From positions 1-64,000 of IMG/VR virus record IMGVR_UViG_3300023210_003077: a DNA stretch of 64,000 bases; one strand, 5' to 3'. This DNA is from a virus. The notes beneath the pieces were generated by a model. That model was not told the origin of the DNA, did no database searches, and was given only the letters and a program-made list of their open reading frames with translations. Shown here piece after piece: positions 1,195-58,282 of the stretch. The stretch's first letter is position 1. Every line of letters begins with the position of its first letter. Position numbers and translations under genes: made by a program.

Positions 1195-1464
1195 ATGAGA
1201 TTTTTAAAAAAATTCGAAAAATTTAATGAAGAGTTCGTAATGGGTGGACAGGAAGTGGAAACTAAACCAGCACCAACAACAACTCCAGATGTTAAACCAG
1301 GAACAAGACCTAGTAGACCATCACCAATAAGGAGAGATAAACCATCGGTTAATCCTAATCCTAAAATGGAACTTCCAACATCTAGTGTTGAAGACGTTGT
1401 TAATAAATTCGTGAGTCTCCTTAATGATAAGGGTGAAGACATAAAAAAATATGTCAATAAATAA
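1195..1464 (+). CDS. Small proline-rich protein with capsid-targeting-like tag
   Basis: 89 residues. The N-terminus MRFLKKFEKFNEE fits the tag, with a predicted cut after F-N-E. A Pro/Thr/Lys-rich linker (residues ~22-62, repeated KPxTRPSRPSP-like pieces) follows, then a short helix near the C-terminus (VEDVVNKFVSLLNDKG). The stop TAA overlaps the ATG of the next gene by one base, so the two are translationally coupled. A disordered basic linker plus tag would suit an internal head protein; that role is inferred. Confidence 0.6.
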   Translation: MRFLKKFEKFNEEFVMGGQEVETKPAPTTTPDVKPGTRPSRPSPIRRDKPSVNPNPKMELPTSSVEDVVNKFVSLLNDKGEDIKKYVNK

Positions 1465-2978
1465 TGAAGAATTTTAACGACTTTATGAATGAAGAAGTTT
1501 CTCTTAAAGGTAACTCAGGTATACCTGGAGAAGGGGCTGATAAAGATGAAAAGAAATATTTAAGTGATGTTGAGCGTAGAGCTCGTCAAAGAATAGGTGT
1601 ACCCAATGAGGAAAACCCTAGATTTGGACCTCCAAGACAAACAATGCAAGTAGGTAGAGAGATGATGGAAGTCATGGGACAATCTATGAGGTTTGTTAGA
1701 GGTAATGAAGATGCTTTAGAAGAATTAGCAGAAAGAATAATAATGCAAGAATATGCGTCTATATTAGATAATGTAGATTTAGATATTAAGATTGTTAGGC
1801 CAGGTGATGTTAAGGCTTTTATGGATGAAGAGTGTGAAGATTGTGAACCACCATCTATGCAATTATTAGAAGATCCCGAAATTAAAAAAGAGGTTGATAA
1901 AAGAAAGGTTATAAACAATATTACACAAGGTGAAGCTAAAAACACCAAAAGAATTTTAGCAATGCCAGAAGTTAAAACTGAATTACAAGCTATTCTTGGT
2001 CAAGGACCAGGTGAAGAAGCTCACACACTATGGATGAGATTAACAGAATTAGCTGATAAAATGGATTGGTTAATACCAGTTGATGTTAAAGGTGATATGA
2101 TGGAACAAGCACCAGAAGGAGCGGCAGGAGCATGTTCAGTAAAATGGCCAGAAGCAAAAGAAGAAGAAGATTTATCAAAGAAAATATTAAAGAATCTTGA
2201 AGAAGATGACGCTGATATAGATAACGAAGATGAGGATATACAAGAATTGTTATCAAGTGGTAACCCAATTATAAAAGCAAGAGGTGTAGATTTCCCAATG
2301 TTATTACATGAAACTGTTAAAGGTATTTATGAATTAATAGCAGCGGCTGGTATACCAGAAGATAAAAGAACTGCTGGATTAGTTATGTCAAATACATCTA
2401 CAATGGATGATGAAGCAGAAGAGTTCAGATATGGACCAGAATTAGCATCAGATATAAGAGATTTTGTTAATGAAGCTCCGGATGTTGATAAGTATCCAAA
2501 TATAAGAGAACACTTCTATGGTGTGTTACACGCTTTACCAGTAGATGAGTTCTTACCATTGGTTAAGAAAATTCTTTTAAGTACCCCAGAAGCTAGAACA
2601 AAGGTTGATGAGATGGTAGAAGAAATAATCAAATCAATAGATGAGTATGAATTAGGCGAAGCTTTACCTAATTCTGATTATAACGAACCAGAAGAAGATG
2701 GAGATACAATTGAACCTAGTAAAGAAAAAGATATTTCATTTGAGGATGAGATGAAACAAAAAACAATTGAAAGAGAATCAGATTACTCTCAATTAAGTAA
2801 AAAAGAGATTCAAGATTTAATTGATGATGCTCTTGATGCGGCTATAAAGAAAGGTGATGGAGACTTTTCTAAAGTAAAAGAGCTAAGTGAATTCTTAGGA
2901 GAAGGAAAGGAAATTTATCTTAGAGAAATAGAAAGAATAAACGAGGGTCATAGTCACCACGATAGAAAACAAAAATAA
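1464..2978 (+). CDS. Large acidic putative internal virion protein with tag
   Basis: 504 residues beginning MKNFNDFMNEE, a clear tag with cut after M-N-E. The rest is acidic and helical. Two more ordered blocks stand out: residues ~60-180 (REMMEVMGQSMRFVRGNEDAL...) and ~275-390, which contains LLHETVKGIYELIAAAGIPED and RYGPELASDIRDFVNE. I do not recognise a catalytic motif. The gene sits between two other tagged genes on the same strand, with a 6-nt gap to the ankyrin protein downstream. Size and context suggest an abundant packaged or head-associated protein; the function is unknown. Confidence 0.6.
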   Translation: MKNFNDFMNEEVSLKGNSGIPGEGADKDEKKYLSDVERRARQRIGVPNEENPRFGPPRQTMQVGREMMEVMGQSMRFVRGNEDALEELAERIIMQEYASILDNVDLDIKIVRPGDVKAFMDEECEDCEPPSMQLLEDPEIKKEVDKRKVINNITQGEAKNTKRILAMPEVKTELQAILGQGPGEEAHTLWMRLTELADKMDWLIPVDVKGDMMEQAPEGAAGACSVKWPEAKEEEDLSKKILKNLEEDDADIDNEDEDIQELLSSGNPIIKARGVDFPMLLHETVKGIYELIAAAGIPEDKRTAGLVMSNTSTMDDEAEEFRYGPELASDIRDFVNEAPDVDKYPNIREHFYGVLHALPVDEFLPLVKKILLSTPEARTKVDEMVEEIIKSIDEYELGEALPNSDYNEPEEDGDTIEPSKEKDISFEDEMKQKTIERESDYSQLSKKEIQDLIDDALDAAIKKGDGDFSKVKELSEFLGEGKEIYLREIERINEGHSHHDRKQK

Positions 2979-2984
2979 AATTAT

Positions 2985-4913
2985 ATGAAACTACATAAAT
3001 ATAATCAGTTTTTGGATCAAAAGCCAATAAACGAAGATCTAAATAAATCTAAGAAATTCTTGAAGGAGAGACACCTTTTAATAAAAGCGGCTGAAGAAAT
3101 GGGGTTGATCAAAGGTGAATTAGAACAACAATTGAAACATGGTGAGAAAAAATCACTAACACTAAATGATTTCACTGATGAACAAGCAAAGGAACTTAGA
3201 TATATGATGAGAGGTATGAAAATCTCGGATGAAGAAATACAACAGATTGAAAGAGATCCTGAATTTTTGGAGTTAAGAGAAGAACTCAAAGATAATATTG
3301 GTTATTTATATAACTTCACTTATATGTATTATGTAGAAATGGTTACATTAGAAGAAATAAAGTCTATGTATAATAGATTATTAGAATACAAAAATTTATT
3401 AAACCAATTACCAAAAAAGTTCAATGTAGGTTTTATAGACACTAAAATAGATAATAATAGTGAGATTCTAGTAGATGGTCTTGACCAATTAGAAGATTAT
3501 AGAAAAGTTAAGAAGATTGTAGATAAACTGACTAGTGAACTTAAAAAGGATTATAAAAAAGCGGCCGAAGGACAAAAAGAAAAATTCTCATCAATTGCCA
3601 CAGCATTTAACGAGATGGGTAAAAAGGAAGACGGAACAATAGATGAAGAAAAGAGAGATGGTTTATGGAAATCATTCTTTGGTGAAGTAAGAGTAATTGA
3701 AGGAGTTAAAAGATATGTTGGTCAATTAAAACGTTACAAAACCATTGGTGAGTTTAACAGAGCGGCAGAAAACTTCTTAAAAGCATCAGAAAATTCAGAT
3801 ATATTAGCTTTTTATGATAAAATAAATGATTGTAATGAGAAATTTGGATTTGCCGGGGCTGATATAGTATTTGATGAGAATGGAATTCTTATAATAGAAG
3901 TTAAATCATTCCCAGCGAATCAAATGTTAAATGGACATACTAGACACTGTATTAAAGATTATAACAGTCAATGGGAAAATTATGTATCAAATCATAATAA
4001 CAAACAATATTACGTTTATAACTTCAATATACCACAACATGATAATATGTCAGTAGTTGGTGTAACAATCGAACCAGGTCAAAGAGTAAGAGCAGCACAC
4101 GCTAAGAATGATTCAAGTGTTGGAAGTGGGTTTAAAAGAACAATGGATAATTGGCAAAAAGAATATGCAATAAAAGATAATCTTTGGGATCAATTAAAAC
4201 CAATGACACAAGAAGAAGTTGATAGGAGAGAAAGAGCTAAAGTAGCCGAAAGAAGGATTATCGAGAAAGGATTATCAATTGAAGATATTGTTAAATTTGT
4301 AAAAGAAGATGGTGCTAATATTAATAAGAATAATGGTGTGTGTTTGTCAAACGCTGTTGAAGAAGATGATATCGAAAAGGCTAAAGTTATACTTCAATTA
4401 GGAGCATCTCCTAACTTAAAGAAAGGAGCTGATGCTCCAATTTCAAAAGCTAAGAACTTAGAGATGATTAAGCTACTTGTTAGTAATGGCTCTGATATAA
4501 CAGGAGATGTATTCAATAATATATTACACGATATGGATGCTTTAGAATATTGTTTAAAAGCTGGATTAGATCCTAACTTCAATAACTTTTTACCATTCAG
4601 AAGAGTTTGTAAAGGTAGTTGGAAAACAAGAGATGATATCGGAGAAAGTTATTTAGGAGCATTTAAGTTATTACTTAAATACGGAGCTAAATTATCTGAT
4701 GATAGAGGTAGAAATATGATTATCAAATGGGCATCTGAATACTCTAGACTTGATATATTAGATTTCTTATCAGAAGAAAATCTTTCACAGAAGTTCACAG
4801 CGAAAGAATGGGAGGAAGCAATAACTTGGATAAGCCATTCAAGAAAAACTAATGATGATATAAAAACTGGAATATTTGATTACTTAAATAATGAGATAAG
4901 TAAAAAATCATAA
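2985..4913 (+). CDS. Tagged ankyrin-repeat protein with PcfJ-like domain
   Basis: 642 residues. The N-terminus MKLHKYNQFLDQKPINE carries the tag, extended to an I-N-E site. Residues ~20-290 are helical and charged. Residues ~310-390 resemble the PcfJ-like domain: NGHTRHCIKDY, a tyrosine-rich strand, then VVGVTIEPGQRVRAAHAKND. Residues ~435-640 form degenerate ankyrin repeats, with units such as AVEEDDIEKAKVILQLGASPN and NLEMIKLLVSNGSD. Ankyrin repeats usually bind proteins, so together with the tag I infer a protein carried in the head that may act on a host target after injection. It ends at a bidirectional terminator. Confidence 0.6.
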   Translation: MKLHKYNQFLDQKPINEDLNKSKKFLKERHLLIKAAEEMGLIKGELEQQLKHGEKKSLTLNDFTDEQAKELRYMMRGMKISDEEIQQIERDPEFLELREELKDNIGYLYNFTYMYYVEMVTLEEIKSMYNRLLEYKNLLNQLPKKFNVGFIDTKIDNNSEILVDGLDQLEDYRKVKKIVDKLTSELKKDYKKAAEGQKEKFSSIATAFNEMGKKEDGTIDEEKRDGLWKSFFGEVRVIEGVKRYVGQLKRYKTIGEFNRAAENFLKASENSDILAFYDKINDCNEKFGFAGADIVFDENGILIIEVKSFPANQMLNGHTRHCIKDYNSQWENYVSNHNNKQYYVYNFNIPQHDNMSVVGVTIEPGQRVRAAHAKNDSSVGSGFKRTMDNWQKEYAIKDNLWDQLKPMTQEEVDRRERAKVAERRIIEKGLSIEDIVKFVKEDGANINKNNGVCLSNAVEEDDIEKAKVILQLGASPNLKKGADAPISKAKNLEMIKLLVSNGSDITGDVFNNILHDMDALEYCLKAGLDPNFNNFLPFRRVCKGSWKTRDDIGESYLGAFKLLLKYGAKLSDDRGRNMIIKWASEYSRLDILDFLSEENLSQKFTAKEWEEAITWISHSRKTNDDIKTGIFDYLNNEISKKS

Positions 4914-4920
4914 TAAAACA

Positions 4921-5689: not shown

Positions 5690-6106
5690 TTAGTTTGGGT
5701 TACCATCATTATCATATCTCTCCGGTATAAACTGTGGTTTATGACCAATTTCAGTGATAACCAACTCATAATAAGCATCAGTAGATCCAAAATCACTATA
5801 AAATACCTTTAACCCGAATCCACTTAGTTGTGAATGAACATCATATATTAAATCGTGTATCTTTGGCTCTATATGATATAATGTTGGCATATCATTTGGA
5901 AAATCTATGGTTTTATCAAAAAGTTGTATAATAAATGATTTATCATCATTTTTAATGATGCCTGATTGTAATGGATTCTCTACTGAAAATCCTAACTCCG
6001 GAAACTCATCAGTTATGTATAACATAATATCACTTATATCATTATAAGTCATACCTTTATCACCATAAACACTTTCTTTTAGAAACTCGTTATACTTTTT
6101 CAACAT
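5690..6106 (-). CDS. Tagged hypothetical protein
   Basis: 138 residues starting MLKKYNEFLKES, a tag variant with cut after L-K-E, the closest here to the L/I-x-E site used by T4 gp21. The body is a mixed alpha/beta sequence with several Asp/Tyr-rich turns and no recognised motif. A TTAATATATAC element ends three bases before the ATG, so if it is a -10 box the transcript would be essentially leaderless. Confidence 0.55.
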   Translation of the reverse strand: MLKKYNEFLKESVYGDKGMTYNDISDIMLYITDEFPELGFSVENPLQSGIIKNDDKSFIIQLFDKTIDFPNDMPTLYHIEPKIHDLIYDVHSQLSGFGLKVFYSDFGSTDAYYELVITEIGHKPQFIPERYDNDGNPN

Positions 6107-10905: not shown

Positions 10906-11346
10906 TTAAGGTCTAAAAGCCCACTTTTTCAATACTTCAAAAACCTCACCCATACCAAAAGAGTAACTAGAAGAATATTCTAAAAATTCTTCCTTAGTCA
11001 TACCTTTAGCAATCTCATCATGAATATCTATTTCTAATTTATTGATTTCATCATCCGACCATTGAAAATTCTCACTAACTAAATCTCCAGTTGGTTCTTC
11101 TTCAACAGTACCAGGTATTTCTAAATATTGATCTAAAATACCTTTAGTAGTCATATCATCTTCCCAATACCAAGCTTCTCCATCAAGTAATGCAACTTTA
11201 TCATCAGAAATTAATTTTTGTAAAGATGTGTTATCTGTAAATGCGTTAACATCCTCATCAGTTAAATTTACCTTAACAGAACCCGGTATATTTTCACCTG
11301 GTTTCTCTGCTTTACTTTCGTTAAATTGACTCCACTTTTTAATCAT
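10906..11346 (-). CDS. Tagged acidic hypothetical protein
   Basis: 146 residues starting MIKKWSQFNESKAEKPG, a strong tag with predicted cut F-N-E|S. The body is acidic, with VNLTDEDVNAF and a C-terminal helix KEEFLEYSSSYSFGMGEVFEVLKKW. No domain is recognised. It is the last of six consecutive minus-strand tagged genes (13180 down to 10906) that appear to form one operon. Its stop abuts the end of the convergent homing endonuclease. Confidence 0.6.
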   Translation of the reverse strand: MIKKWSQFNESKAEKPGENIPGSVKVNLTDEDVNAFTDNTSLQKLISDDKVALLDGEAWYWEDDMTTKGILDQYLEIPGTVEEEPTGDLVSENFQWSDDEINKLEIDIHDEIAKGMTKEEFLEYSSSYSFGMGEVFEVLKKWAFRP

Positions 11347-11352: not shown

Positions 11353-11844
11353 TTATTTATTTTTATCAAAATCATTTATCATATCCAAAACTTCCTTAAA
11401 AGCTTTTTTTCTACCAGATTTATAAGCATTTACTGTACCACCATCAGAGACACCTTTGTAGGCATCATCAAAATCCCATAATTCATAATTTACTTTCTTA
11501 TTTAGACCTTCTTTAACTTTCAAATTTAAAATATGTAATATTGTTTCTTTATCTAATTCTGCTGATAGATTCTCATCAATTTTATTACTCTCAAGTAAAC
11601 CTCTTAATTCATTTACTAAATATCCAGGATCTTCATCATACTTCCCACCACTCCAATCATCTAACAATCCTTGAAGTTCAGGAACATTACTAACTGTCTT
11701 CATTTTATTCACAGGTTTAGACGCTTCTTCAATGTCTTGTTTATCTACTCCCGCCGCTGGAAATGATTGCATCTCCTGAAAGAAGTTCAATAAACTATAA
11801 TCACTATTTGATTCATTAACGAATTGTTTCCACTTTTTAATCAT
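11353..11844 (-). CDS. Tagged hypothetical protein
   Basis: 163 residues starting MIKKWKQFVNESNSD, with predicted cut V-N-E|S. It has a hydrophobic helix (YSLLNFFQEMQSF), a middle acidic region and a C-terminal VSDGGTVNAYKSGRKKAFKEVL segment. No family is recognised. Its start overlaps the end of the upstream tagged gene by 8 nt and a 6-nt gap separates it from the next one, consistent with a tightly packed operon. Confidence 0.6.
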   Translation of the reverse strand: MIKKWKQFVNESNSDYSLLNFFQEMQSFPAAGVDKQDIEEASKPVNKMKTVSNVPELQGLLDDWSGGKYDEDPGYLVNELRGLLESNKIDENLSAELDKETILHILNLKVKEGLNKKVNYELWDFDDAYKGVSDGGTVNAYKSGRKKAFKEVLDMINDFDKNK

Positions 11845-12244
11845 AATTTCTTAATAATTTTTTTAACATATCAGTTGGCTCATCATCAAAATAAATTGAT
11901 TCTATATAACCTACTCTATAATCATCAATACCATCATACTCACCATCGGCACCAGTTATTAAATTCAACAATTGTTGACTTTTACTACCTACATATTCTT
12001 CGTCCAAAGAAGCACCTGTCTCATTTTTAAATGCTTCTGGTGATTCATATTCTTTCCATTCTCCTGATTTTGATTTTTCAAATACCTTACCCTCTGTTGT
12101 TACAAGTATAATACCTGTACCAGATAATAAATCTTCTAAGAATACCGGAACATTAATACCATTTTCAAATATTTCTTTCAAATCATTGATAGTATCTAAT
12201 CCCTCACTCTCTAATTCTTCGTTAAATTTTCTTAAATATTTCAT
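11837..12244 (-). CDS. Tagged hypothetical protein
   Basis: 135 residues starting MKYLRKFNEELESEG, tag with cut F-N-E|E. A compact alpha/beta body follows: IFENGINVPVFLEDLLSGTG then IILVTTEGKVFEKSKSGEWK. No family is recognised. It lies third in the six-gene tagged array, with its stop overlapping the next start. Confidence 0.6.
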   Translation of the reverse strand: MKYLRKFNEELESEGLDTINDLKEIFENGINVPVFLEDLLSGTGIILVTTEGKVFEKSKSGEWKEYESPEAFKNETGASLDEEYVGSKSQQLLNLITGADGEYDGIDDYRVGYIESIYFDDEPTDMLKKLLRNYD

Positions 12245-12252: not shown

Positions 12253-12537
12253 TTATCTTTTTCCTGTTCTGTATTCTTCGATGATAGTATCAACATCCCT
12301 ACGTACCTTCTTCCTACTAACACCATATAATATTGATAATGTATCTTCACAACCTGACTGACCATCATAACTAGGATTCATAGATCCATCCATATAATCA
12401 CCGTATATCTGATCTGCTATATATTTACACATTTTTTCTAAAGCTTCTTCGTAACTAGGACACTTAGATTTAGGTGGATCAAAATCATCATCACTTCTAC
12501 CTATAACACCCTCATTAAATTTTATTAAATGTTTCAT
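12253..12537 (-). CDS. Small tagged protein
   Basis: 94 residues starting MKHLIKFNEGVIGRS, tag with cut F-N-E|G. After cleavage the product would be about 85 residues with two cysteines (SKCPSYEEALEKMCKYI and QSGCEDTLSILYG) and a basic C-terminus ending YRTGKR. No family is recognised. A TTAATATATA motif ends about five bases before the ATG. Confidence 0.58.
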   Translation of the reverse strand: MKHLIKFNEGVIGRSDDDFDPPKSKCPSYEEALEKMCKYIADQIYGDYMDGSMNPSYDGQSGCEDTLSILYGVSRKKVRRDVDTIIEEYRTGKR

Positions 12538-12557: not shown

Positions 12558-12881
12558 TTATTTGAATTTATGTGGGAATATGTGTCTTAGTTCATGACCC
12601 TTTGGTATATCAGAAGCTCTCATACCCATAATCTTTTTCTCAGGACAAGTATCTTTACCATCCATTAGGTAATTATTATTACAAGCCCATACTTCAATAG
12701 TTCTATTAAATAGTTGACCTACTTGAAAAGGGAATCTAATATTTGGTAATTTTTCGATTCTTGTTATTTTACCATCAGGAGTTTTAAACACAGAAAAAAC
12801 CATATGTCTATTTCTCTTATTAGTAAAAACTACCTCTCTTTCTGGTAAATTTCCCTCATTAAATGTTTTCAAATGTTTCAT
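12558..12881 (-). CDS. Small basic tagged protein
   Basis: 107 residues starting MKHLKTFNEGNLPER, tag with cut F-N-E|G. The mature part is basic and beta-rich (REVVFTNKRNRHMVFSVFKT) and ends HIFPHKFK. A small basic packaged protein is reminiscent of T4 internal proteins, but no homology is claimed. The start overlaps the stop of the upstream tagged gene by one base. Confidence 0.58.
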   Translation of the reverse strand: MKHLKTFNEGNLPEREVVFTNKRNRHMVFSVFKTPDGKITRIEKLPNIRFPFQVGQLFNRTIEVWACNNNYLMDGKDTCPEKKIMGMRASDIPKGHELRHIFPHKFK

Positions 12882-13180
12882 TATTTTAAATATGACATAT
12901 CTTCTTTTGTTAAGGCCGAGAATAAATCTACTATTTTACCTTTGATTCCACCTAAATCACCTCTGATATCTTCTATCATATCAATCAATTCTTGTGGTAA
13001 TTCATTTTCATTAACATTTAACTCAGCCATCATATTATTAAACTCACCCACACCATATTTACTCGATCCTAAAGAATCATGTATATCACCAAATTCTCCG
13101 TGTTGATCTATATATCCATTGTAATCAACATACTCACCAGAATTCTCATCCCAAGCTTCATTAAATTTTTTAATAGCCAT
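12881..13180 (-). CDS. Small tagged acidic protein, first gene of the array
   Basis: 99 residues starting MAIKKFNEAWDENSG, a short tag with cut F-N-E|A. The body is acidic and helical (FNNMMAELNVNENELPQELI then DMIEDIRGDLGGIKGKIVDL). No family is recognised. It is promoter-proximal in the six-gene array: the TTAATATATAC element at 13201-13210 and the Ro60 terminator lie just upstream. Confidence 0.58.
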   Translation of the reverse strand: MAIKKFNEAWDENSGEYVDYNGYIDQHGEFGDIHDSLGSSKYGVGEFNNMMAELNVNENELPQELIDMIEDIRGDLGGIKGKIVDLFSALTKEDMSYLK

Positions 13181-21140: not shown

Positions 21141-21614
21141 ATGAAATACCTAAAGAAATTTGAAAACTACGATCCTAGAGATCTTGGTAGATTTAATAAT
21201 GAAGATGATATCAATCCGGAAGAAGAAAATACAGATTTAATCGATGATGTTGAAGGTATTGAAGATTTTGAAGGACAGTTAGGTTCCGTATCAGATGAAG
21301 AAGAAGAAGATTTAGAAGAAAAAGAAAACCAAAGAAAAATAAGACTCTGGGGTGACGAAGAATCACAAGTAGTTGAGAAAAAAGGCATGAACGCTGGGTT
21401 AAAAGCTTACTTAGATAAACAAAAAGGTAAGAAAAAAGAAGGTAAAGATGTTGATAAGGATGATAAGAAAGATGTTAAAGGTAAGAAAGATACTAAAGAT
21501 AAGAAGGAAGATAAGAAGGAAGATAAAGTAGATACCAAAGGATTAACTGCGGGTCAAAAGAAACTTCCAGCTGGATTACAAAAAGCAATCTTAGCTAAAA
21601 AGAAAAAGAAATAA
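21141..21614 (+). CDS. Tagged protein with lysine-rich C-terminal tail
   Basis: 157 residues starting MKYLKKFENYDPRDL, a tag variant. Residues ~20-70 are strongly acidic (DEEEEDLEEKE) and residues ~90-157 are extremely Lys-rich (KGKKDTKDKKEDKKEDK, ending LAKKKKK). A tagged, strongly basic tail suits a protein packed against DNA in the head, comparable in concept to T4 internal proteins; no homology is claimed. The stop overlaps the next ATG by one base. Confidence 0.6.
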   Translation: MKYLKKFENYDPRDLGRFNNEDDINPEEENTDLIDDVEGIEDFEGQLGSVSDEEEEDLEEKENQRKIRLWGDEESQVVEKKGMNAGLKAYLDKQKGKKKEGKDVDKDDKKDVKGKKDTKDKKEDKKEDKVDTKGLTAGQKKLPAGLQKAILAKKKKK

Positions 21615-21955
21615 TGATTAAGAATTGGTTAAAATTTAACGAAAGTGTAGAATCTAAAGAAATTGACATGGCTAAATCCTTCTTACAAAACAATGATTTA
21701 GAAGTTAAAGATATCAACTCAGGTAATGAGGGTCATGATTTAGGTAAAAAGTTCAAGGGTGTAAGTGATCCTGGGTCAGATAAAACAGCATTCATTTGGA
21801 ATGGAGATGGATGGAAAAATGATGGTAAAGAAGCTTTTTATGTATATATGCCTTTTGATGAGGAAATTCTCAAAGAAATGAAAGAGAAATTTCCAGTACT
21901 TAGTGTAGGTGGTAGAAATGGTACTTATTATGAAGTAACAATAGAAAAGAAATAA
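21614..21955 (+). CDS. Small tagged protein
   Basis: 113 residues starting MIKNWLKFNESVESK, strong tag with cut F-N-E|S. A small alpha/beta domain follows, with FKGVSDPGSDKTAFIWNGDG and a C-terminal strand NGTYYEVTIEKK. No family is recognised. It is coupled to the Lys-rich tagged gene and followed by a terminator. Confidence 0.58.
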   Translation: MIKNWLKFNESVESKEIDMAKSFLQNNDLEVKDINSGNEGHDLGKKFKGVSDPGSDKTAFIWNGDGWKNDGKEAFYVYMPFDEEILKEMKEKFPVLSVGGRNGTYYEVTIEKK

Positions 21956-23775: not shown

Positions 23776-23955
23776 ATGATACCGCACTTTTATGACGAAT
23801 TCGGAACTTACACAACAAAAGAAGACATTGAAATATATATCGAAAATTTGATTGGTCTAGGAGAGACTGATGATAAAATCGTTTATAATAAATGTATATT
23901 TATGTTTGGTGATATGCTTTCGGATATAATTAACGAAGTTCTTTATGAGGATTAA
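23776..23955 (+). CDS. Small acidic hypothetical protein
   Basis: 59 residues, MIPHFYDEFGTYTTKEDIEI and onward to INEVLYED. It is predicted helical and acidic. Its last 11 nt overlap the start of the HAD gene, the tight overlap of co-translated phage genes. No family is recognised. Upstream, at 23671-23775, is AT-rich spacer between divergent genes. Confidence 0.5.
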   Translation: MIPHFYDEFGTYTTKEDIEIYIENLIGLGETDDKIVYNKCIFMFGDMLSDIINEVLYED

Positions 23956-24583
23956 CAGATTTGAAGAATATGATACCTTATATGTATTTGATTTTGATGA
24001 TACATTAGTAGAGACTCCTAGTTTTGAGGAACTAGCTCTAAAATACTTAAAGGAGAGTTATTCAGTCAAAGACCTATTAGATATTTCTATTAGAAGATCA
24101 GGTTGTAAAATCGAAGATTTAAAATGGGAAAATGGTCGCATATATCTTGACGACCCAACATATAGATATAAAGAATTTGGAAACTGGGTTAGAAAAAAAT
24201 CTAGATTATATCTAGTAACTCCAAATATATTTTCACAAACAGATGAGAGTTTACCAACAGAATTAAAACCACTAATTGACCTATATAATAAGGTGGATAA
24301 TAAATGTATAGTAACAGCTAGACCAGAAGTAATAAAAGAAAAGTTAATATCCGTTTTATCAAAGTTAGGAATTGAATATCCAAAATATGGATTACATATG
24401 TTACCAACCAGAATAAAAAATGCGGGTGAGTGGAAAGGTCACAAAATAGTTGAACTTGTTAAAGAAACTGGTGTTAATAAAGTTATATTCTATGATGATA
24501 ATTCAAAATTTTTAAGAAAAGCAACTAAGGTTATAAAAGAAAGACTTCCAAATTTAAATTGGGAACCTATTAAGGTCAAGTAA
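23945..24583 (+). CDS. HAD-like hydrolase, phage RNA-repair-type
   Basis: 212 residues. HAD motif I FDFDDTLVETPSF starts near residue 15, the second motif is CIVTARPE, and the final acidic motif VIFYDDNSKF is near 180. It resembles the HAD domain found in Swiss Army Knife RNA-repair proteins of phages. Substrate is unknown; a phosphatase acting on nucleotides or RNA ends is plausible. The N-terminus MRINRFEEYDT weakly recalls the capsid tag. It converges on the DNA polymerase fragment with a 4-bp gap. Confidence 0.65.
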   Translation: MRINRFEEYDTLYVFDFDDTLVETPSFEELALKYLKESYSVKDLLDISIRRSGCKIEDLKWENGRIYLDDPTYRYKEFGNWVRKKSRLYLVTPNIFSQTDESLPTELKPLIDLYNKVDNKCIVTARPEVIKEKLISVLSKLGIEYPKYGLHMLPTRIKNAGEWKGHKIVELVKETGVNKVIFYDDNSKFLRKATKVIKERLPNLNWEPIKVK

Positions 24584-26800: not shown

Positions 26801-27196
26801 TTATGGTCTATTAAATCCACTATCTTTTCTATTAGCAGCTGCTGGTTTTACAAACACATCTACAAATCCAGTAACACCATCGTCATAAACAACGTACATT
26901 CTACTCGAATTAGCGGATGCTTGACCGGGTGATCTGTCTTTTCTACCACCTCTTTGGATTCTTAATCCACCTTTATAGTTATTTTCACTAGCTTCTTTTT
27001 CTAAACGTTCTCTGTTAAACGAATAACCCTTTGGATTTTTATTTGCAGCTTCTTCAGCATCATCTAAAGCTTTATTGAAAGCTACCATAGCCTTATCTCT
27101 ATCATCACTACTGTCATGACCAGTAAAGAACTTTCTTATTCCTTCTTCCTCTTCATTTACTGGAGAGTAATTTTCAAACGTCTTTAAATATTTCAT
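26801..27196 (-). CDS. Tagged hypothetical protein
   Basis: 131 residues starting MKYLKTFENYSPVNEEEE, a tag reaching V-N-E|E. Residues ~30-80 form a charged helix-rich part and residues ~80-131 are basic and Gly/Ser-rich (RIQRGGRKDRSPGQASANSS). A strand VVYDDGVTGFVDVFVKP follows. No family is recognised. A TAATATATAC element lies about 27 nt upstream. Confidence 0.56.
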   Translation of the reverse strand: MKYLKTFENYSPVNEEEEGIRKFFTGHDSSDDRDKAMVAFNKALDDAEEAANKNPKGYSFNRERLEKEASENNYKGGLRIQRGGRKDRSPGQASANSSRMYVVYDDGVTGFVDVFVKPAAANRKDSGFNRP

Positions 27197-27845: not shown

Positions 27846-28904
27846 TTAGTTTGATAAAGGTGCTTTTATAACACCAGATGATTCATAATTAATAATCTTG
27901 ATATTATCAAAATATAAATTATCTATCGAAATGTTATTTAATTCTATTTTACACAAACCAAATGTTTCTCTTGTTAATTGTTGTTTTACTTGATCAACAT
28001 GGTTAGTATATATATGACAATCACCACCAGAAAACTTTAATTGATTTGGAACCATATTAACCTCTCTAGCTAAAAGGTGTAATAATATACCATATGATGC
28101 TATATTAAATGGTAATCCTAAAAATGAATCCACTGATCTTTGATTCCATTTAAGACTCAATTTTTTTCTAGGTACTTCTCTATCATCTAACATATCATCA
28201 GTCATATCCTGTGAATATATTAAAGACTTATTTATTGACGAACACCACCATTCCCTTCTTTCATCGTGTGTCATTTTATTAGTATAACACTGAAACCCAT
28301 AATGACAAGGTGGTAAAACCATCTTATCAAGCTCTCCAGGATTCCAAGCACTGACCATAAGCCTTCTAGAATCTGGATTATTTTTAAGGTCTCTTATTAA
28401 ATCGGCTATTTGGTCTACCTGAGGAACGTCCTTCCAACTAGAAGGAGAATTATGTTCCCAACCATTAACAACTTTCTTATAACCTTTCCAGTTTCTCCAT
28501 TGTTTACCATAAACAGGGCCTAAATCTCCCCATTTCTTAGCAAATTCACCATCAGATTTAACCCTATCAATAAAATCAATCATAGTATCTGGCCAATCAC
28601 CCTTAAATTCACTAGAATTCTTCATATAATTCTTAAAGGCATCACCATTCCAAATATTAACACCATTATCGACAAGATATTTTATATTTGTATCACCTCT
28701 CAAAAACCATATTAGCTCGTGTATTACAGCTTTTGTAAAAACTTTCTTAGAAGTTAATAACGGAAAACCCTCTGACATATCAAATGTCATTGAATAATCA
28801 AATATTGAAATGGTTCCGGTTCCGGTTCTATCTTCTTTTAATTCACCATTTTCAAGTATATATTTTAGAAAATCTATATACTGTTTATCCACACTATTTT
28901 TCAT
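27846..28904 (-). CDS. thyA: Thymidylate synthase
   Basis: 352 residues. Conserved blocks are LKEDRTGTGT, PLLTSKKVFTKAVIHELIWF, LVDNGVNIWNGDAF, the catalytic Cys in VLPPCHYGFQCY, LKWNQRSVDSFLGLPFNIAS and SGGDCHIYTNHVDQV. It converts dUMP to dTMP with methylene-tetrahydrofolate. The protein is longer than E. coli ThyA (264) because of inserts around residues 90-150 and near the catalytic Cys (TNKMTHDERREWWCSSINKS). The start overlaps the upstream P-loop gene by 11 nt. Confidence 0.95.
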   Translation of the reverse strand: MKNSVDKQYIDFLKYILENGELKEDRTGTGTISIFDYSMTFDMSEGFPLLTSKKVFTKAVIHELIWFLRGDTNIKYLVDNGVNIWNGDAFKNYMKNSSEFKGDWPDTMIDFIDRVKSDGEFAKKWGDLGPVYGKQWRNWKGYKKVVNGWEHNSPSSWKDVPQVDQIADLIRDLKNNPDSRRLMVSAWNPGELDKMVLPPCHYGFQCYTNKMTHDERREWWCSSINKSLIYSQDMTDDMLDDREVPRKKLSLKWNQRSVDSFLGLPFNIASYGILLHLLAREVNMVPNQLKFSGGDCHIYTNHVDQVKQQLTRETFGLCKIELNNISIDNLYFDNIKIINYESSGVIKAPLSN

Positions 28905-30323: not shown

Positions 30324-30476
30324 ATGAAAAAGAAAGCAAATAAAGGAAAATCGATACTAAGAGAGAGGTTTATAATAGGCTTTTGTAAAAAGAATGGTTG
30401 GAATTATAATGAGTTAACAACTGGACAGATGTTAATAATAGCAAATAAACCAGAATATAAAACCCCTAAATTATGA
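30324..30476 (+). CDS. Small basic protein
   Basis: 50 residues: MKKKANKGKSILRERFIIGF, then CKKNGWNYNELTTGQMLIIA, ending in PEYKTPKL. It is basic, with one helix. Its TGA overlaps the ATG of the tagged gene downstream (ATGA), a standard coupling junction. No family is recognised. Confidence 0.5.
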   Translation: MKKKANKGKSILRERFIIGFCKKNGWNYNELTTGQMLIIANKPEYKTPKL

Positions 30477-30997
30477 TTAAAAAATGGTCAGAATATATAA
30501 CTGAGTCTTTTGAAAAGGTTTCTCATACAGAGGATGATATTTATAAATATACATTAGATTTATTAGAAGATAAAATTAATGATTTATTTTTTGATATACA
30601 CGGAGAATTTGATACAGTATCAGGAGATATAACACCAGGACAATCATTTGAATTGGGTGACCTTCAAGAGAAAATGGCTAAGTTAATATCTAAACAAGTT
30701 CATCAAAATCTAGGAAAAGATTTCAAAAAAATAAGATCAAGTGAAATTGATGTTAATGAATTAAAAGAACTTTCTGATGAAAGAGATTCTGTTAAGGACG
30801 GTGATGAAGTTATCGCTGTTTATTTTGATGGTGGTTATTCAATTTATAAGTTCAAAGTTTTTACTGATGATGTTGCTAATAGAGGATTAGGAGGTGATGA
30901 TGTGGATGAAGGAAATTGGTATGAACTAGAAGATGCCTACCTCGTTGTAAAGGCAGACACCTATAATGATTTTGTAAGTCCAGATAAAAGAATCTGA
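30473..30997 (+). CDS. Tagged hypothetical protein
   Basis: 174 residues starting MIKKWSEYITESFEK, a tag with cut I-T-E|S, the same residues as the T4 site class (I-x-E). The body is acidic with a helical first half and a beta second half (VIAVYFDGGYSIYKFKVFTD). No family is recognised. It converges directly on the peptidase gene with no gap. Confidence 0.58.
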   Translation: MIKKWSEYITESFEKVSHTEDDIYKYTLDLLEDKINDLFFDIHGEFDTVSGDITPGQSFELGDLQEKMAKLISKQVHQNLGKDFKKIRSSEIDVNELKELSDERDSVKDGDEVIAVYFDGGYSIYKFKVFTDDVANRGLGGDDVDEGNWYELEDAYLVVKADTYNDFVSPDKRI

Positions 30998-38230: not shown

Positions 38231-38503
38231 TTAATTAGTTTGTAAAAAATCCAATATTATATCTATATTTTCTTTTGTAAATCCATCTAACGGAGATCCA
38301 CCAAATTTAAGGTACTCACCATAAATATCATTATATTCATCTATTGTATATATCTTAGAATCCATCTCTGAATAAATAACATTTGTGTCATGTGAATTTA
38401 TGGTTTTATTCTGTAACCCCGTCTCACCATAAGCAGGACCAATAGGACCAACCAATTCAGTACCAGATATTTCTTCATTAAATTGTTTAAATTTCTTTAT
38501 CAT
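38231..38503 (-). CDS. Small tagged protein
   Basis: 90 residues starting MIKKFKQFNEEISGTEL, strong tag with cut F-N-E|E. The mature part is Gly/Tyr-rich in the middle (GPIGPAYGETGLQNK) with a C-terminal helix (ENIDIILDFLQTN). The ATG overlaps the stop of the upstream gene by 4 nt. No family is recognised. Confidence 0.56.
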   Translation of the reverse strand: MIKKFKQFNEEISGTELVGPIGPAYGETGLQNKTINSHDTNVIYSEMDSKIYTIDEYNDIYGEYLKFGGSPLDGFTKENIDIILDFLQTN

Positions 38504-50900: not shown

Positions 50901-51275
50901 ATGATAAGAATCGATAGCTATATGGAATTTATAAACGAAGAATTCTTTAGAAAGATATTTAATAAGAAAAAAACAAATAAGTCATCTAAAAAATCAAGAT
51001 TAGATACTTGTTTATTTAACATTTTAGAATTCTTAAAAGATAATGATATTAATGATTGGAATGATTTTATGGGAATGTCACAATTTGATAGAGAAATTGT
51101 TGATAAAATAATTGACCATGAAATAAAAAACTTCGATGAATTAAAGGAAATTAAATTTCTAATAAAATTAGAATTGGCAGATACTCAACAATTAAGAGAG
51201 TTTCTAACTGAATATGAAGATAAAGAAGAGTATGAAAAATGTGCTCAGATAATTAAAAAAATAAGTAGTAAATAA
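50901..51275 (+). CDS. Tagged hypothetical protein
   Basis: 124 residues from the ATG at 50901 (MIRIDSYMEFINEEFF), tag with cut I-N-E|E, identical to the class of site in the capsid protein. An ATG at 50874 is in frame, but that extension runs through the TTAATATATA box. After the tag comes a basic stretch (KKKTNKSSKKSRLD) and a helical domain. First of five consecutive plus-strand tagged genes (50901-52954). Confidence 0.57.
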   Translation: MIRIDSYMEFINEEFFRKIFNKKKTNKSSKKSRLDTCLFNILEFLKDNDINDWNDFMGMSQFDREIVDKIIDHEIKNFDELKEIKFLIKLELADTQQLREFLTEYEDKEEYEKCAQIIKKISSK

Positions 51276-51481
51276 TGAAACACTTAAAGAAATTTAACGA
51301 AAGTGAAGAGTTTAATTGGGATGATGTTCTAAAAAAACAAAGATCTGGAGATAAATGGGAAGAACTTGAAAAGGATATAATCTCAATTGCTGAAAAATAT
51401 GAAGGTGACTTCGGAGTTGACTCTTATGGAGTTGTTGATGCTATGTACCAAGTACTGGAAGGAATGTACCAAAAGAAATAA
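51275..51481 (+). CDS. Small tagged protein
   Basis: 68 residues starting MKHLKKFNESEEFNWDD, strong tag with cut F-N-E|S. The mature part is about 59 acidic helical residues. Start and stop of the flanking genes overlap or nearly touch (1 nt, 8 nt). No family is recognised. Confidence 0.56.
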   Translation: MKHLKKFNESEEFNWDDVLKKQRSGDKWEELEKDIISIAEKYEGDFGVDSYGVVDAMYQVLEGMYQKK

Positions 51482-51489: not shown

Positions 51490-51909
51490 ATGAAAAAGAT
51501 TAAAAGGTTTAATGAAGCCAAAAAAGAAGAAGAAACACAAGAAATTACATTTGATGCTAAAGAACTAGTTGATAAAGATGTTGAACCTGGATTCACAACA
51601 TCTGTTGAGGACCAAGAAAAGGTTGATAAGGCATTTAAAAAAGAAATGGATAAGATTGTTAAGTTTGAAAACTTCATAACGATTAACATCGATAATATTG
51701 AGAATATTGAGAATATTGATATGGAGAATGAATTAGAAGAAGAAAGTGATGAAACTTTATCAGGAGATTGTGCTTGTTGTGATAATTGCACCGGAGAAGC
51801 TGGCTGTGAATGTGGATGCCCCGGATGCGAATGTGTTGAGAGTGATGGTGTTGGTGTTATTAACTTCTCTGAATTTACAAGTGATGGTGAAAATGAAGTA
51901 GAAGAATGA
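51490..51909 (+). CDS. Tagged protein with dense cysteine cluster
   Basis: 139 residues starting MKKIKRFNEAKKEEE, tag with cut F-N-E|A. Residues ~95-116 hold nine cysteines in CACCDNCTG ... CECGCPGCEC, a metallothionein-like density that probably binds zinc or another metal. The rest is acidic with a short repeat (NIENIENID). No family is recognised. The stop overlaps the next gene by 4 nt. Confidence 0.57.
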   Translation: MKKIKRFNEAKKEEETQEITFDAKELVDKDVEPGFTTSVEDQEKVDKAFKKEMDKIVKFENFITINIDNIENIENIDMENELEEESDETLSGDCACCDNCTGEAGCECGCPGCECVESDGVGVINFSEFTSDGENEVEE

Positions 51910-52475
51910 TACACAAATTTAATCAATATAAAGAAATATCAGAGAATCTAAAATACCATTTAGATAGTTCTAAACCTATAACTGAAAATGTTTTTAGACC
52001 TGGTTCAGATGCTTTTTATGAAGTAATAAAAGAAGCTAGAAAGTTATTCGATTCTAATACTGTTGAATTGTGTGATATAGATAATGAATTATTCGAATCA
52101 ACAGATATTGGTAGGTTCGGAGTGTTTAATAATGAATTAGTACCACTTGATTTACCAATAGAAAATATTCAAGAATTAAATGAAGCAGAGTATAAGGGTA
52201 AAGAAGTTAAATTAAATTATCCTAAAAGAGGCGGGACTAAGAAATATCACGTTTATGTTAAAAACCCAAAGACTGGTAATGTTAAAAAACTTGCCTTTGG
52301 AGATGTACATGGTGGACTAACAGCTAAAGTTAGTAACCCAGATGCTAGAAAGAGCTTCGCGGCTAGACATAAATGCTCAACCAAAAAGGATAGAACAACT
52401 GCTGGATATTGGGCTTGTCGTCTCACGAAATACGGACATCTTTGGAATGGGCGAACCTACCCTGGGTATTGGTAA
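51906..52475 (+). CDS. Tagged virion-protein candidate with conserved C-terminal domain
   Basis: 189 residues starting MIHKFNQYKEISENLKY, a looser tag (cut I-S-E|N). Residues ~100-189 form a basic domain: GGTKKYHVYVKNPKTGNVKK, then SFAARHKCSTKKDRTTAGYW and a C-terminal NGRTYPGYW. I have seen this ARHxC...TxGYWxCR pattern at the end of structural proteins of T4-like phages, but cannot name the family with certainty. Confidence 0.57.
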   Translation: MIHKFNQYKEISENLKYHLDSSKPITENVFRPGSDAFYEVIKEARKLFDSNTVELCDIDNELFESTDIGRFGVFNNELVPLDLPIENIQELNEAEYKGKEVKLNYPKRGGTKKYHVYVKNPKTGNVKKLAFGDVHGGLTAKVSNPDARKSFAARHKCSTKKDRTTAGYWACRLTKYGHLWNGRTYPGYW

Positions 52476-52495: not shown

Positions 52496-52954
52496 ATGAA
52501 ACACTTAGAAACATATAAAATATTCGAAATCGCTAAAATCAAAGAAATTACTTGTGATAACTGTGATTGGAATTGGGAAATTGAAATAAATGATGATAGA
52601 AAATATTTATGTCACCAATGTGGATATGATAATGAATTAAAAGAATTTGATATGAAAGCTTTGAAAGAATGGCAAAATGAAAACCCAGACGTTGTATTAC
52701 CATTTATTGAAGAACAGTTATCAGAGAATACATTTATCAGAGAATTTAAACAAGAAACTGATTCAGGTGAATTTATTTGGCATCGTGATAGAGAAGATAG
52801 AATTATAGAGTCTATAAATGAAACTGATTGGATGATTCAAATCGATAATCAACTTCCAAAAGTAATTGAGGGTATTGTAGAAATACCTATGGGTGTTTAT
52901 CATAGACTAATAAAAGGAAATGGTAACTTAAAGATTAAATTAATTAAGAAATAA
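52496..52954 (+). CDS. Tagged zinc-ribbon and cupin-like protein
   Basis: 152 residues starting MKHLETYKIFEIAKIKE, tag variant with cut I-F-E|I. Residues ~19-50 hold a CxxC...CxxC zinc ribbon (TCDNCDW ... YLCHQCGYD). The C-terminal part has FIWHRDREDRIIESINETDW and VYHRLIKGNGNLKIKLI, an H-x-D...H layout like the phage cupin-type domains. No catalytic role is proposed. It converges on the 52944 gene with an 11-nt overlap. Confidence 0.57.
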   Translation: MKHLETYKIFEIAKIKEITCDNCDWNWEIEINDDRKYLCHQCGYDNELKEFDMKALKEWQNENPDVVLPFIEEQLSENTFIREFKQETDSGEFIWHRDREDRIIESINETDWMIQIDNQLPKVIEGIVEIPMGVYHRLIKGNGNLKIKLIKK

Positions 52955-55523: not shown

Positions 55524-55557
55524 AAAATCCAATTGAAAGTATTCAATCGGCTCTTGT

Positions 55558-55933
55558 GGAGATGACGATGTACTGCCCATCGTGTCTTCCTCAGTTAACA
55601 ATAATTATTCATTTACAGGCTTAGAAAGTTTTTCTAAACTTTCAAACTAGATAATTTTTTTGAAAAGACTTCTAAAAATTATCAAATAACGGTCTTACCT
55701 TTTTAACTGTGTAAATCAGTTGTTAAATTTTCAAGAGTTTCCTCTATTAAGCTTCAACTAACTCCCCTACGTTAAGTAGGTTGTTTTGTAGAGCAAATAC
55801 TAAATCTTCTTTGCTTGCTACTTCTGTTACGTTTCCGTTTACTGTTTTGTTATTTAATTTATTAATCGGGTATTTAACAATCCGATACCTGCATAACTAC
55901 CTTTACTCTGCGAATCTATTCTATGACACCCCC
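55558..55933 (-). ncRNA. ssrA: Transfer-messenger RNA (tmRNA), one-piece
   Basis: 376 nt on the minus strand, no conventional ORF. Ends pair as a 7-bp acceptor stem GGGGGTG (55933-55927) / CATCTCC (55564-55558), two wobbles allowed. A T-arm-like hairpin ACGATG-GGCAGTA-CATCGT (55583-55565) abuts the acceptor strand exactly as in tmRNA. Near the 5' end GAATAGATTCGCAG matches the conserved GGATTCGAC region. AGTTA/TAACT and GCAGG/CCTGT form the P2 helix. Between them a frame without ATG runs ...GNVTEVASKEDLVF... to ...NVGELVEA, ending TAATAG, the double stop typical of tag ORFs. The tag would be about 29 residues, long like the phage Bxz1 tag. The T-loop lacks TTCGA and CCA is not encoded. SmpB is not in the window. 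Confidence 0.78.
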
Positions 55934-55950
55934 AAGTGTTTGTAATTAAT

Positions 55951-56003
55951 GTATATATAATATACTAAAATATTTAAAAGTTGTTAAAATGGATTGTTTA
56001 TAG
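55951..56003 (-). promoter_or_regulatory. Bipartite promoter of the tmRNA
   Basis: Minus strand: CTATAAACAATCCATTTT (56003-55986), 26 nt, then TATATATAC (55959-55951), 17 nt before the mature 5' G. The box abuts the stop codon of the 56004 gene. Confidence 0.7.
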
Positions 56004-56498
56004 TTAAAATGGAACACGATCATCGTTCAAACCTTCATCATAAAAGAAGTTAAAGGTTAACATTGGTTTACCTTTTCTAGTTTCCCACATCTCAAACTCA
56101 CAATCATATTGTGGTAATACATCCTTCTTCAATTTATTAGCCACATCTAAAACATTAATAACATCTTTTAATCTTTCCTTTCTATTCATAACACAATATA
56201 TCATAATATCTAAGTTCTTATGTTCTATTTCAACCTCAATACCATTGTTCTTAAACATTGTTCTTAACAAGTAAAGTAAATGTTGAACATCATCTCTATC
56301 ATCATTATCATCCTCACTAGATCTAGACTCACCACCATTAAGATACTGGTAACCCTCATCATCATAATCCGACCGATCAGACCATCTATCACTTGGATCA
56401 CCCCAAGGATCGTTAATATCATCATTAAGATATGAGTTCTCATCCTCTCTTATATTTTCCTTTTCTAGGAACTTCTTATAATTCTTAATATTCTTCAT
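56004..56498 (-). CDS. Tagged acidic protein
   Basis: 164 residues starting MKNIKNYKKFLEKENIRED, tag with cut L-E-K-E or K-E|N. Residues ~20-70 are Asp/Ser/Arg-rich and disordered (DPWGDPSDRWSDRSDYDDEG), then an alpha/beta domain (RTMFKNNGIEVEIEHKNLDI). No family is recognised. It lies directly between the tmRNA promoter and the second peptidase gene. Confidence 0.57.
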   Translation of the reverse strand: MKNIKNYKKFLEKENIREDENSYLNDDINDPWGDPSDRWSDRSDYDDEGYQYLNGGESRSSEDDNDDRDDVQHLLYLLRTMFKNNGIEVEIEHKNLDIMIYCVMNRKERLKDVINVLDVANKLKKDVLPQYDCEFEMWETRKGKPMLTFNFFYDEGLNDDRVPF

Positions 56499-56499
56499 A

Positions 56500-57855
56500 T
56501 TATGTTAATTCTATTTTAAGATATGTTTCAGTAAAAATACACATACTATCTACTTTATGTTTATCAAGTAAGTTTTGTACAATATTCAAAGTATCATAAA
56601 CAGTTACTAGATTAGTATCATCTAAATCTATTCTTATATATATTTTATCCTCAAACCCAACCATCTTCACCTCTAATTCAAATACTGCATTTTTTATAAC
56701 ATCAATTAAAGATTTGTGCTTCTGCACTAAATCAAGGTTCAAACCTACTTTTCTAGCAACTGGTAATCCAGCCCAATCAACATTAATAGAAGTTTTACAC
56801 AACTGTATTAAAAATGTCATGTTTTGTTCTTCTCTACCTGTGTGTTCATTTAAATAACCAACAGATAAATTAGTACACTCAGGAATAATATCCATAAATG
56901 AAGCAGAATCAGTATAAACGCCACCATTATCCAATGAAAGGTTAAGTCCTTGTTTATTGTACTCTTTACAAAGTCCTGTACCAAAAGCATCAGAACAACA
57001 ACGACCACCCATTTGATGTGTTATAACAGAAATTGTTCTTCTTCTATCAAAAGAAATACATTTCTTAACATTTTTTAGGAAATCAAATTTATCATAAACA
57101 TCAGCTAATTGATTAGAACCAATACCACCTCTTTCTTCACCAATAAAGAAATAATAAATACCTGGGATATTATGAACCATCATATACATCATAACAGTAA
57201 CTCCAGACTTATCATCAGCCCCTAATATTGTACTACCATCAGTATAGATTATCTCATCCCCATCTACCTCTTTAGTGAATAGGTTAGTAGGAACTGGACT
57301 TCTATCAGCCGTATCAAGGTGAGAACTAAACATTGTAGTATCATCACCAGGAATCACTTTATAATAATTACCAAATTCATCTTTATCTAAGTCTTTTGGT
57401 AAGTATTTCATAACTTTCTCCTCATGTGGGTGTGGGTATGTTTCTGTAACAAGTGATAAGAATGTAGACCTAGGGTCTTTTGGATTATAACTAAACTCAG
57501 GTATTTCAACTTTTTTACCAGATTGTTCAGCCTTACCACCATTCTTCACTCTATTGAAAGCATGAGCAAATTTTGTTATCTCATCACTACTAAATAGATT
57601 AGAAAAGTAATATCTAATGAATTTACCAATTTTCATTATATTTTTCTTACCACCAATAACAACAGTGAAATTAAAATCTGATGATTTATCTGTACCACAA
57701 TCAACATTTGTTATATTAAGGCCATTATGATATTTTGCAGTTGGATCATTCATCCAAAGAAGTTCAAAAGCTAGATAACTATTATTATCCTCCATACTTT
57801 TAAGTATCTTTAGTAATTTATCCGAAAATTTTACTCTTTTAGTTTCTCCTGCCAT
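56500..57855 (-). CDS. Zinc peptidase of the M20/M28/M42 group, copy 2
   Basis: 451 residues. The same ligands as copy 1: FSSHLDTAD, ILGADDKSG, FIGEERG, SFDRRR and YLNEHTGREE. It is preceded by a ~150-residue extension (residues ~1-150) not present in copy 1, of a small alpha/beta type. YTDSASFMDIIPECTNLSVG matches LTDSINFMDFVPECTNISVG of copy 1 (30998-32080), so both derive from one gene duplication. The start lies near a TTAATATATA motif. The substrate is unknown. Confidence 0.8.
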   Translation of the reverse strand: MAGETKRVKFSDKLLKILKSMEDNNSYLAFELLWMNDPTAKYHNGLNITNVDCGTDKSSDFNFTVVIGGKKNIMKIGKFIRYYFSNLFSSDEITKFAHAFNRVKNGGKAEQSGKKVEIPEFSYNPKDPRSTFLSLVTETYPHPHEEKVMKYLPKDLDKDEFGNYYKVIPGDDTTMFSSHLDTADRSPVPTNLFTKEVDGDEIIYTDGSTILGADDKSGVTVMMYMMVHNIPGIYYFFIGEERGGIGSNQLADVYDKFDFLKNVKKCISFDRRRTISVITHQMGGRCCSDAFGTGLCKEYNKQGLNLSLDNGGVYTDSASFMDIIPECTNLSVGYLNEHTGREEQNMTFLIQLCKTSINVDWAGLPVARKVGLNLDLVQKHKSLIDVIKNAVFELEVKMVGFEDKIYIRIDLDDTNLVTVYDTLNIVQNLLDKHKVDSMCIFTETYLKIELT

Positions 57856-57892
57856 TATAAAAATTTATTTTATTAATCTTATATATTAAATA

Positions 57893-58282
57893 TCAAACTA
57901 CGATTTCGTAGGCATTGATATAATCAACTCTTACTTGACCCTCATTCATACCACTTTCTTTCTTAACAAATTTTCTTTGGCAATAAACAACAGTTACATT
58001 ATCTTCTTTACTAGCTTTACTATTCTTTTTAGCTAATTCAGCAACATATCTTAGTATTTCTTGAGTTGGTAAGTTTTCTCTAACTCTTATAATAACATGA
58101 CTCCCAGGAACACCCTTAGCGTGCATCCAGATGTCTTTATCATCAGCAACGTTAAATGTTAAGTGGTCGTTAGATTTGGAGTCTCTACCTATATGAATAA
58201 AGAATCCTTCTACTTCAACTTTCTTAATATTAGGGAACTTAGTCTTCTTAGACTCAAAGAAATAATTATACTTTTTAATCAT
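57893..58282 (-). CDS. Tagged NFACT-R (RqcH/NEMF C-terminal) domain protein
   Basis: 129 residues starting MIKKYNYFFESKKTKFP, tag with cut F-E|S. The rest is a complete NFACT-R (DUF814) domain: GFFIHIGRDSKSNDHLTFNV, then DKDIWMHAKGVPGSHVIIRV, LPTQEILRYVAELAKKNSKA and VVYCQRKFVKKESGMNEGQV. In RqcH and eukaryotic NEMF this is the C-terminal domain of a much larger protein that adds C-terminal tails to stalled nascent chains. Here it stands alone, with a packaging-like tag, 2.3 kb from the tmRNA. An interfering or helper role at ribosomes is a hypothesis. Confidence 0.8.
   Translation of the reverse strand: MIKKYNYFFESKKTKFPNIKKVEVEGFFIHIGRDSKSNDHLTFNVADDKDIWMHAKGVPGSHVIIRVRENLPTQEILRYVAELAKKNSKASKEDNVTVVYCQRKFVKKESGMNEGQVRVDYINAYEIVV

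Follow-up and report, generated by a model that had tools for sequence, protein, structure and literature searches.

Introduction

In bacteriophage T4, a capsid targeting sequence (CTS) of ten residues is enough for packaging, with targeting set by positions 4 and 7 and cutting by positions 8 and 10 (PMC9026906). The giant phages phiKZ and SPN3US package dozens of proteins, some of which are processed by the prohead protease (PMC5694885). Here we describe a short N-terminal tag shared by many genes on both strands of the IMG/VR virus record IMGVR_UViG_3300023210_003077 (154,019 bases in total), of which bases 1–64000 form the window analysed. A sequence-only reading of the window had taken this tag for a capsid-targeting device. 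No report of such a tag in huge phages was found in the open-access literature. The tag was confirmed as real, stands far above chance and extends beyond the window, and it is probably a T4-type CTS belonging to a hugely expanded system.

The closest relatives in the phage collection were LR745206 (634,780 bases) and LR756502 (642,428 bases), with DNA identity of about 76–80%. Capsid protein matches were also found in LR756501 (735 kb), LR756504 (636 kb) and LR756500 (462 kb), and further in Lak phages and in phages of Tenacibaculum and Chryseobacterium. The 634–735 kb genomes, for which Bacteroidetes hosts are predicted, have been assigned together with Lak to the Mahaphage clade (PMC7162821), and the window is part of a Mahaphage-clade contig. 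Phages of this group are known from metagenomes only. Genes were called as longest open reading frames (ORFs), and the statistics below come mostly from the complete relatives and not from the window.

Enrichment of the N-terminal tag

All 22 gene starts listed by the sequence-only reading were in-frame ATG codons with a recognisable motif, but its literal expression was too rigid and fitted 5 of the 22. An expression with flexible spacing fitted 20, and the remaining two, at 2985 and 56498, were close variants (KYNQFLDQ and NYKKFLEKE). The gapped pattern used was M-(x)-[KR]-x-[LWFIY]-xx-[FY]-x(0-2)-E/[SNG], where the slash, here and below, marks the predicted cut. Three sub-types were set after inspection: type A, M-K-x-[LI]-xx-[FY]-N-E; type B, [YWF]-xx-[FY]-[ILV]-x-E, spaced as in the T4 tag MKTYQEFIAE; and type C, M-K-[YH]-[LI]-xx-[FY]-E-x-[FYW]. 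Each occurred at 0–0.5% of internal methionines.

Of the 182 non-overlapping ORFs in the 154-kb record, 23 matched the gapped pattern, whereas internal methionines gave 3 matches in 974 and shuffled N-termini would be expected to give 1.4. With the union of patterns, 26 of 182 genes were tagged (Fisher p about 6e-19), including a HAD-like protein at 23945 that was absent from the earlier list. The same union tagged 95/947 genes in LR745206 and 100/970 in LR756502, over an internal-methionine background of about 0.3–0.6%; chance alone would account for about 4–8 of the 95–100 matches per complete genome. Counts in LR756500, LR756501 and LR756504 were 26/461, 13/277 and 16/255 (partial sequence for some), and 109 of 1508 genes were tagged in 76 IMG/VR loci reached via the scaffold protein described below. 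The control phages gave 2/304 (Tenacibaculum phage PTm1) and 2/217 (Chryseobacterium phage MA9V-1). In this Mahaphage sub-clade, the tag is carried by about 10% of genes, roughly 85–100 per complete genome.

Because the patterns were tuned by eye, a motif search of N-termini free of any preset expression matters here. Among gapped triplets, [LIVM]xx[FYW]xx[FYW] ranked top in the record and in four relatives, and it was not recovered in PTm1 or MA9V-1 by the same search.

That the shared N-terminus is a by-product of start-codon choice, AT-rich early codons or one duplicated gene family is scarcely credible. The genomes are indeed rich in AT, and some tagged genes form small paralogous families, but the pattern is missing from untagged late genes and from control phages of equal AT-richness. 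Chance and start-codon artefacts were ruled out by the internal-methionine, shuffled and reversed-pattern controls. A codon-usage or translation effect was ruled out by synonymous variation, with 23 distinct 27-mers in 24 type A tags of LR756502, and by the absence of the pattern from untagged late genes (sheath, fibres, baseplate). A single paralogous family was ruled out by the 154 body clusters found for 221 tagged proteins.

Modularity of the tag and its passengers

The tag behaves as a module on unrelated passengers. The claim that the proteins differ completely behind it held in this record, where 26 tagged proteins formed 26 clusters. In the relatives it held for the most part, with 84 clusters for 95 proteins in LR745206 and 88 for 100 in LR756502, the exceptions being small paralogous families. 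One of these, in LR745206 and LR756502, comprises proteins of about 90–340 residues with a DILxELxDDGF stretch, 12 of them in one cluster; another, in the same genomes, comprises proteins of about 370–510 residues with three paralogs per genome. Neither family matches a known function.

Orthologous bodies were found behind different tags. The gene at 57893–58282 (-), which adjoins the major capsid protein (MCP) gene, encodes a tagged NFACT-R domain protein (MIKKYNYFFE/S; Pfam NFACT-R_1, 8e-16). All 25 distinct ortholog N-termini running into its conserved KFP body were tagged and ended in E-S or E-G, with tags ranging from MIKKYNYFFES and MKYLKYFES to MRNLKKFNNFLKEG; in some lineages an added domain stands at the tag position instead. 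The HAD-like protein at 23945–24583 (+; weak HAD match, tag MRINRFEEYD) has a conserved body beginning TLYVFDFDDT, which across contigs is preceded by MRINRFEEYD, MKYLKIFETF, MVKIDKFNEF or MKTNILNFTDF. A Toprim/primase-like protein shows 84% body identity between LR745206 and LR756502, yet its tag is of type B in one genome and of type C in the other. Orthologs in LR756504 of a NUDIX protein and of a second HAD-like protein begin at the domain, without a tag.

Most tagged proteins of the window had no match in Pfam or PHROG, both of which were searched. In the two complete relatives, tagged proteins included PPK2, a T4-type RNA ligase, a NUDIX hydrolase, methyltransferases, the NFACT-R protein and the Toprim/primase-like protein. 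They also included 2H phosphoesterases, with a best match to the 2′-5′ RNA ligase family and a weaker match to anti-CBASS Acb1 (PDB Acb1 match at E=0.007), and a DHH-type protein whose match was below the cut-off. Core replication genes of the window, namely UvsX, ribonucleotide reductase, thymidylate synthase and a DinG-like helicase, carry no tag. The thymidylate synthase (27846–28904, -) has 352 residues, longer than usual, and was matched in pieces (7–209 and 246–342), a possible insertion. The mix of tagged proteins would suit a pre-loaded kit. An early host-takeover role would be a further step, at which the domain content of the relatives hints.

Head genes and tag-like scaffold repeats

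The head genes of this region are of T4 type. They comprise a gp21-like protease fused to a scaffold at 60173–62314 (-; PHROG 207, E=1.6e-30; weak Pfam Peptidase_S77), a gp23-like MCP gene at 58357–60087 (-; PHROG 138/28442) and a gp20-like portal at 65480–66700 of the record (Portal_T4, E=8.5e-58). The cleavage sites quoted by the sequence-only reading, SINE/NAYA in the MCP and VLNE/S in the protease, were both present and conserved in relatives. In the MCP the cut is predicted after SINE (residue 44), the site being conserved as [IML]xE/N in five relatives, and INE/NAYA sits at the place expected for gp23 processing. The MCP gene has an in-frame TGA at 59143–59145 (-; YSGII*PKISS). Recoding was rejected, as the residue there is Gly in LR745206, LR756502 and LR756501 and Ala in LR756504; the TGA is a nonsense change or a sequencing error.

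The protease-scaffold contains 11 copies of [FY]xx[FY][ILVM]xE arranged as 14-residue tandem repeats (60974–61453, -; consensus DKNIAYSEYIAENL), whereas every other protein of the record has at most two. There are 11–14 copies in the four nearest relatives and 9–15 in 80 IMG/VR homologs, and no such array occurs in PTm1, MA9V-1 or T4. Between the repeat core YSEYIAE and the T4 tag core YQEFIAE, 2 of 7 positions differ. AlphaFold2 predicted residues 236–449 as one helix (predicted local distance difference test about 70 there; overall model poor, predicted TM-score 0.20). When internal windows were scanned with a tag profile, the repeats were enriched among the best in this record, LR756502, LR756501 and LR756504, and hardly so in LR745206 (3 of the top 40, none of the top 20). 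For this reason, and because the repeats score below real tags, the argument from the scaffold rests on tandem copy number. A homolog of the protease-scaffold (49% identity) occurs in the 4.5-kb contig SKIG01000098.1 of a Psychroflexus metagenome-assembled genome, consistent with a Bacteroidota host.

Late-type promoter elements

The element [AT]ATATATA was found upstream of 17 of the 19 genes of the record that we labelled structural, the labels being our own, and from this position a late role is inferred for the TATATATA element. Among tagged genes with an upstream gap of at least 25 bases, it was present in 42/43 in LR745206 and 40/44 in LR756502, compared with 127/361 and 140/373 (35–38%) of untagged genes with such a gap (p=1e-16 and 6e-12, respectively). 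When only ATG starts of at least 80 residues were counted, the proportions were 41/42 versus 112/254 in LR745206 and 38/41 versus 123/279 in LR756502; within this record alone the stricter test gave 9/10 tagged versus 49/75 untagged genes, which was not significant. A copy at 58287–58294 (-) lies 5′ of the NFACT-R gene. The element frequently ends 4–5 bases 5′ of the ATG (peak at -12/-13), so that late mRNAs would be nearly leaderless; further copies form a second class at -25 to -37.

Predicted cleavage junction and weighing of the alternatives

Serine followed the tag Glu in 30 of 65 type A, 21 of 58 type B and 16 of 55 type C tags, against a background of 7% after Glu, and N, G, A and E were also frequent. 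An [hydrophobic]-x-E site is present in type A (FNE) and type B ([ILV]xE).

Several observations weigh against a T4-type targeting system. Type C tags (MKYLKxFExF) have the E/[SNG] junction but not the hydrophobic residue three positions before the cut, which leaves it uncertain whether they are cleaved. Most tagged bodies are acidic (median isoelectric point 4.8–5.1), while T4 internal proteins are basic. The MCP, portal and protease are themselves untagged. Lak-B5 (code 15), although in the same clade, lacks the tag (2/396 genes), and [AT]ATATATA also stands upstream of 10 of the 31 genes of the record that we labelled metabolic. A second cleavage site behind type C tags was considered and rejected, as it occurs in a minority only.

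Tagged proteins might also be packaged to fill or shape the core, serving assembly on the scaffold, with many of them, above all those of type C, left uncut or lost before DNA entry. Type C tags have no clear hydrophobic residue at the position in question, T4 core proteins have such assembly roles (PMC9026906), and the acidic bodies, for example that encoded at 56004–56498, recall core proteins. We nevertheless consider this unlikely: type C tags show the same preference for S, N or G after Glu, they exchange with cleavable tags on the same body in the NFACT-R and HAD orthologs, and enzymes make little sense as filler.

The tag might instead be a docking peptide for a target other than the prohead, such as a replication or membrane compartment or a partner protein, its bearers acting unpackaged in the producing cell. 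The enzyme-like character of many of them (PPK2, RNA ligase, NUDIX, DHH, methyltransferase) and their acidity would fit, and about 100 packaged species would be more than in any phage head known. This explanation, which we judge quite unlikely, would account neither for the correspondence with the T4 tag at positions defined by mutation nor for the E/[SNG] junction, the resemblance of the scaffold repeats to the tag, the late-type promoters or the presence of tagged genes in the head cluster (57893 and 56004).

The capsid-targeting interpretation of the sequence-only reading is, by comparison, supported by the T4-type head genes in the same region, the junction, the modularity of the tag, the late-type promoters and the repeat scaffold. 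It is further supported by conservation of the T4 targeting positions: the conserved tag positions are 4 and 7, or 5 and 8 with one residue inserted. Applied unchanged to T4, our patterns matched 3 of 264 ORFs: two MKTYQEFIAE starts, identified as IPII and IPIII from their size and tag, together with a 54-residue ORF beginning MKTFKEFIKE. When a type B profile was built from the relatives, the T4 tag also scored within the range of real tags.

Proposed mechanism and significance

Docking, cutting after Glu, packaging and injection of the tagged proteins are inferred from sequence. During prohead assembly, the tag, with its two bulky residues three apart, would dock late-made proteins on the scaffold core, the docking site being the protease-fused scaffold with its roughly 11 tandem repeats, on which the tag may act like one more repeat. 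At maturation the protease would cut at the E/[SNG] junction, directly behind the tag Glu, and the freed passenger would stay inside the head and then be ejected together with the DNA. Dozens of otherwise uncharacterised proteins would thus probably be carried with the DNA of these phages and may be injected with it. More tentatively, the tag could be a detached single scaffold repeat, by which cargo slots into the helical array, and the same protease would digest the array, like the tags, at sites of one kind. About one gene in ten would then encode a pre-loaded, injected effector, plausibly including nucleotide-signal-degrading enzymes (2H phosphoesterases, DHH proteins) and RNA-repair enzymes; we hold this fuller version possible, at somewhat less than even confidence.

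A rule that needs sequence only would assign about 90 genes per megaphage, most of them unannotated, to the set whose products the particle probably carries; in T4 this set includes anti-restriction and host-takeover proteins. It indicates that the number of genes using a targeting device known from a few T4 proteins can grow by a factor of more than twenty. A possible mode of recognition for capsid targeting sequences is suggested by the tag-like repeats of the scaffold, and the many natural tag variants are available for packaging foreign proteins into phage heads.

Tagged genes of the window

On the plus strand, the gene at 1195–1464 (MRFLKKFEKFNEE) has an ortholog in LR745206 that is also tagged. 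It is followed by 1464–2978, encoding an acidic protein of 504 residues with a tag of T4 spacing (MKNFNDFMNE/E) that is retained in three relatives at body identities of 49–59%, and by the weakly tagged 2985–4913, encoding 642 residues with an ankyrin-like segment (MKLHKYNQFLDQKPINE). Further along are 21141–21614 (type C, MKYLKKFENY), 21614–21955 (MIKNWLKFNE/S) and 30473–30997 (T4 spacing, MIKKWSEYITE/S). A last group comprises 50901–51275 (MIRIDSYMEFINE/E, its ATG lying within a longer TTG ORF), 51275–51481 (MKHLKKFNE/S), 51490–51909 (MKKIKRFNE/A) and the weak tags of 51906–52475 (MIHKFNQYKEISE) and 52496–52954 (MKHLETYKIFE).

The minus strand carries 5690–6106 (MLKKYNEFLKE/S), with a late-type element immediately 5′, and a series beginning with 10906–11346 (MIKKWSQFNE/S), whose tag is retained in LR745206 and LR756502. 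The series continues with 11353–11844 (MIKKWKQFVNE/S), 11837–12244 (MKYLRKFNE/E), 12253–12537 (MKHLIKFNE/G), 12558–12881 (MKHLKTFNE/G) and a short form at 12881–13180 (MAIKKFNE/A). Single tagged genes lie at 26801–27196 (type C, MKYLKTFENY) and 38231–38503 (MIKKFKQFNE/E). In the head cluster, 56004–56498 (-) encodes a tagged, Asp-rich, fast-evolving protein (MKNIKNYKKFLEKE) with an N-terminus that varies across contigs while largely retaining the tag pattern; in position and acidity it is reminiscent of the T4 core proteins gp67 and gp68.

Comparison with known systems

The tag shares with the T4 CTS of IPI, IPII and IPIII (MKTYQEFIAE, cleaved by gp21) its N-terminal location, its length of about 10 residues, the bulky residues at positions 4 and 7, the Glu before the cut, the unrelated passengers, and the same type of capsid protein, portal and protease. 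The two differ in scale, with about 100 tagged genes here against 3 in T4, and in the presence here of three sub-types. The Glu is often at position 9 (FNE) or 8 (FES) here, and at 10 in T4. Here, protease and scaffold form one fusion protein, and the scaffold is built of tag-like repeats. IPI–III are small basic proteins, whereas the passengers here are mostly acidic and several are enzyme-like; only the tag is compared with T4 internal proteins, and no membership of their families is proposed.

Similar N-termini (MKSFKQFLEE, MKTYQQFNES, MKQFCNFLAE) occur in cyanophage P-SSM2 and Vibrio phage KVP40, where the unchanged patterns gave 8 matches (about 5 convincing) and 7 (about 3 convincing), respectively, or 1–3% of ORFs against about 10% here. 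In phiKZ and SPN3US, which have a phiKZ-type head and for which no short common tag of this kind has been described, the propeptides of the inner-body and ejection proteins are mostly longer than 100 residues, whereas the tags here span about 8–13 residues and accompany head genes of T4 type.

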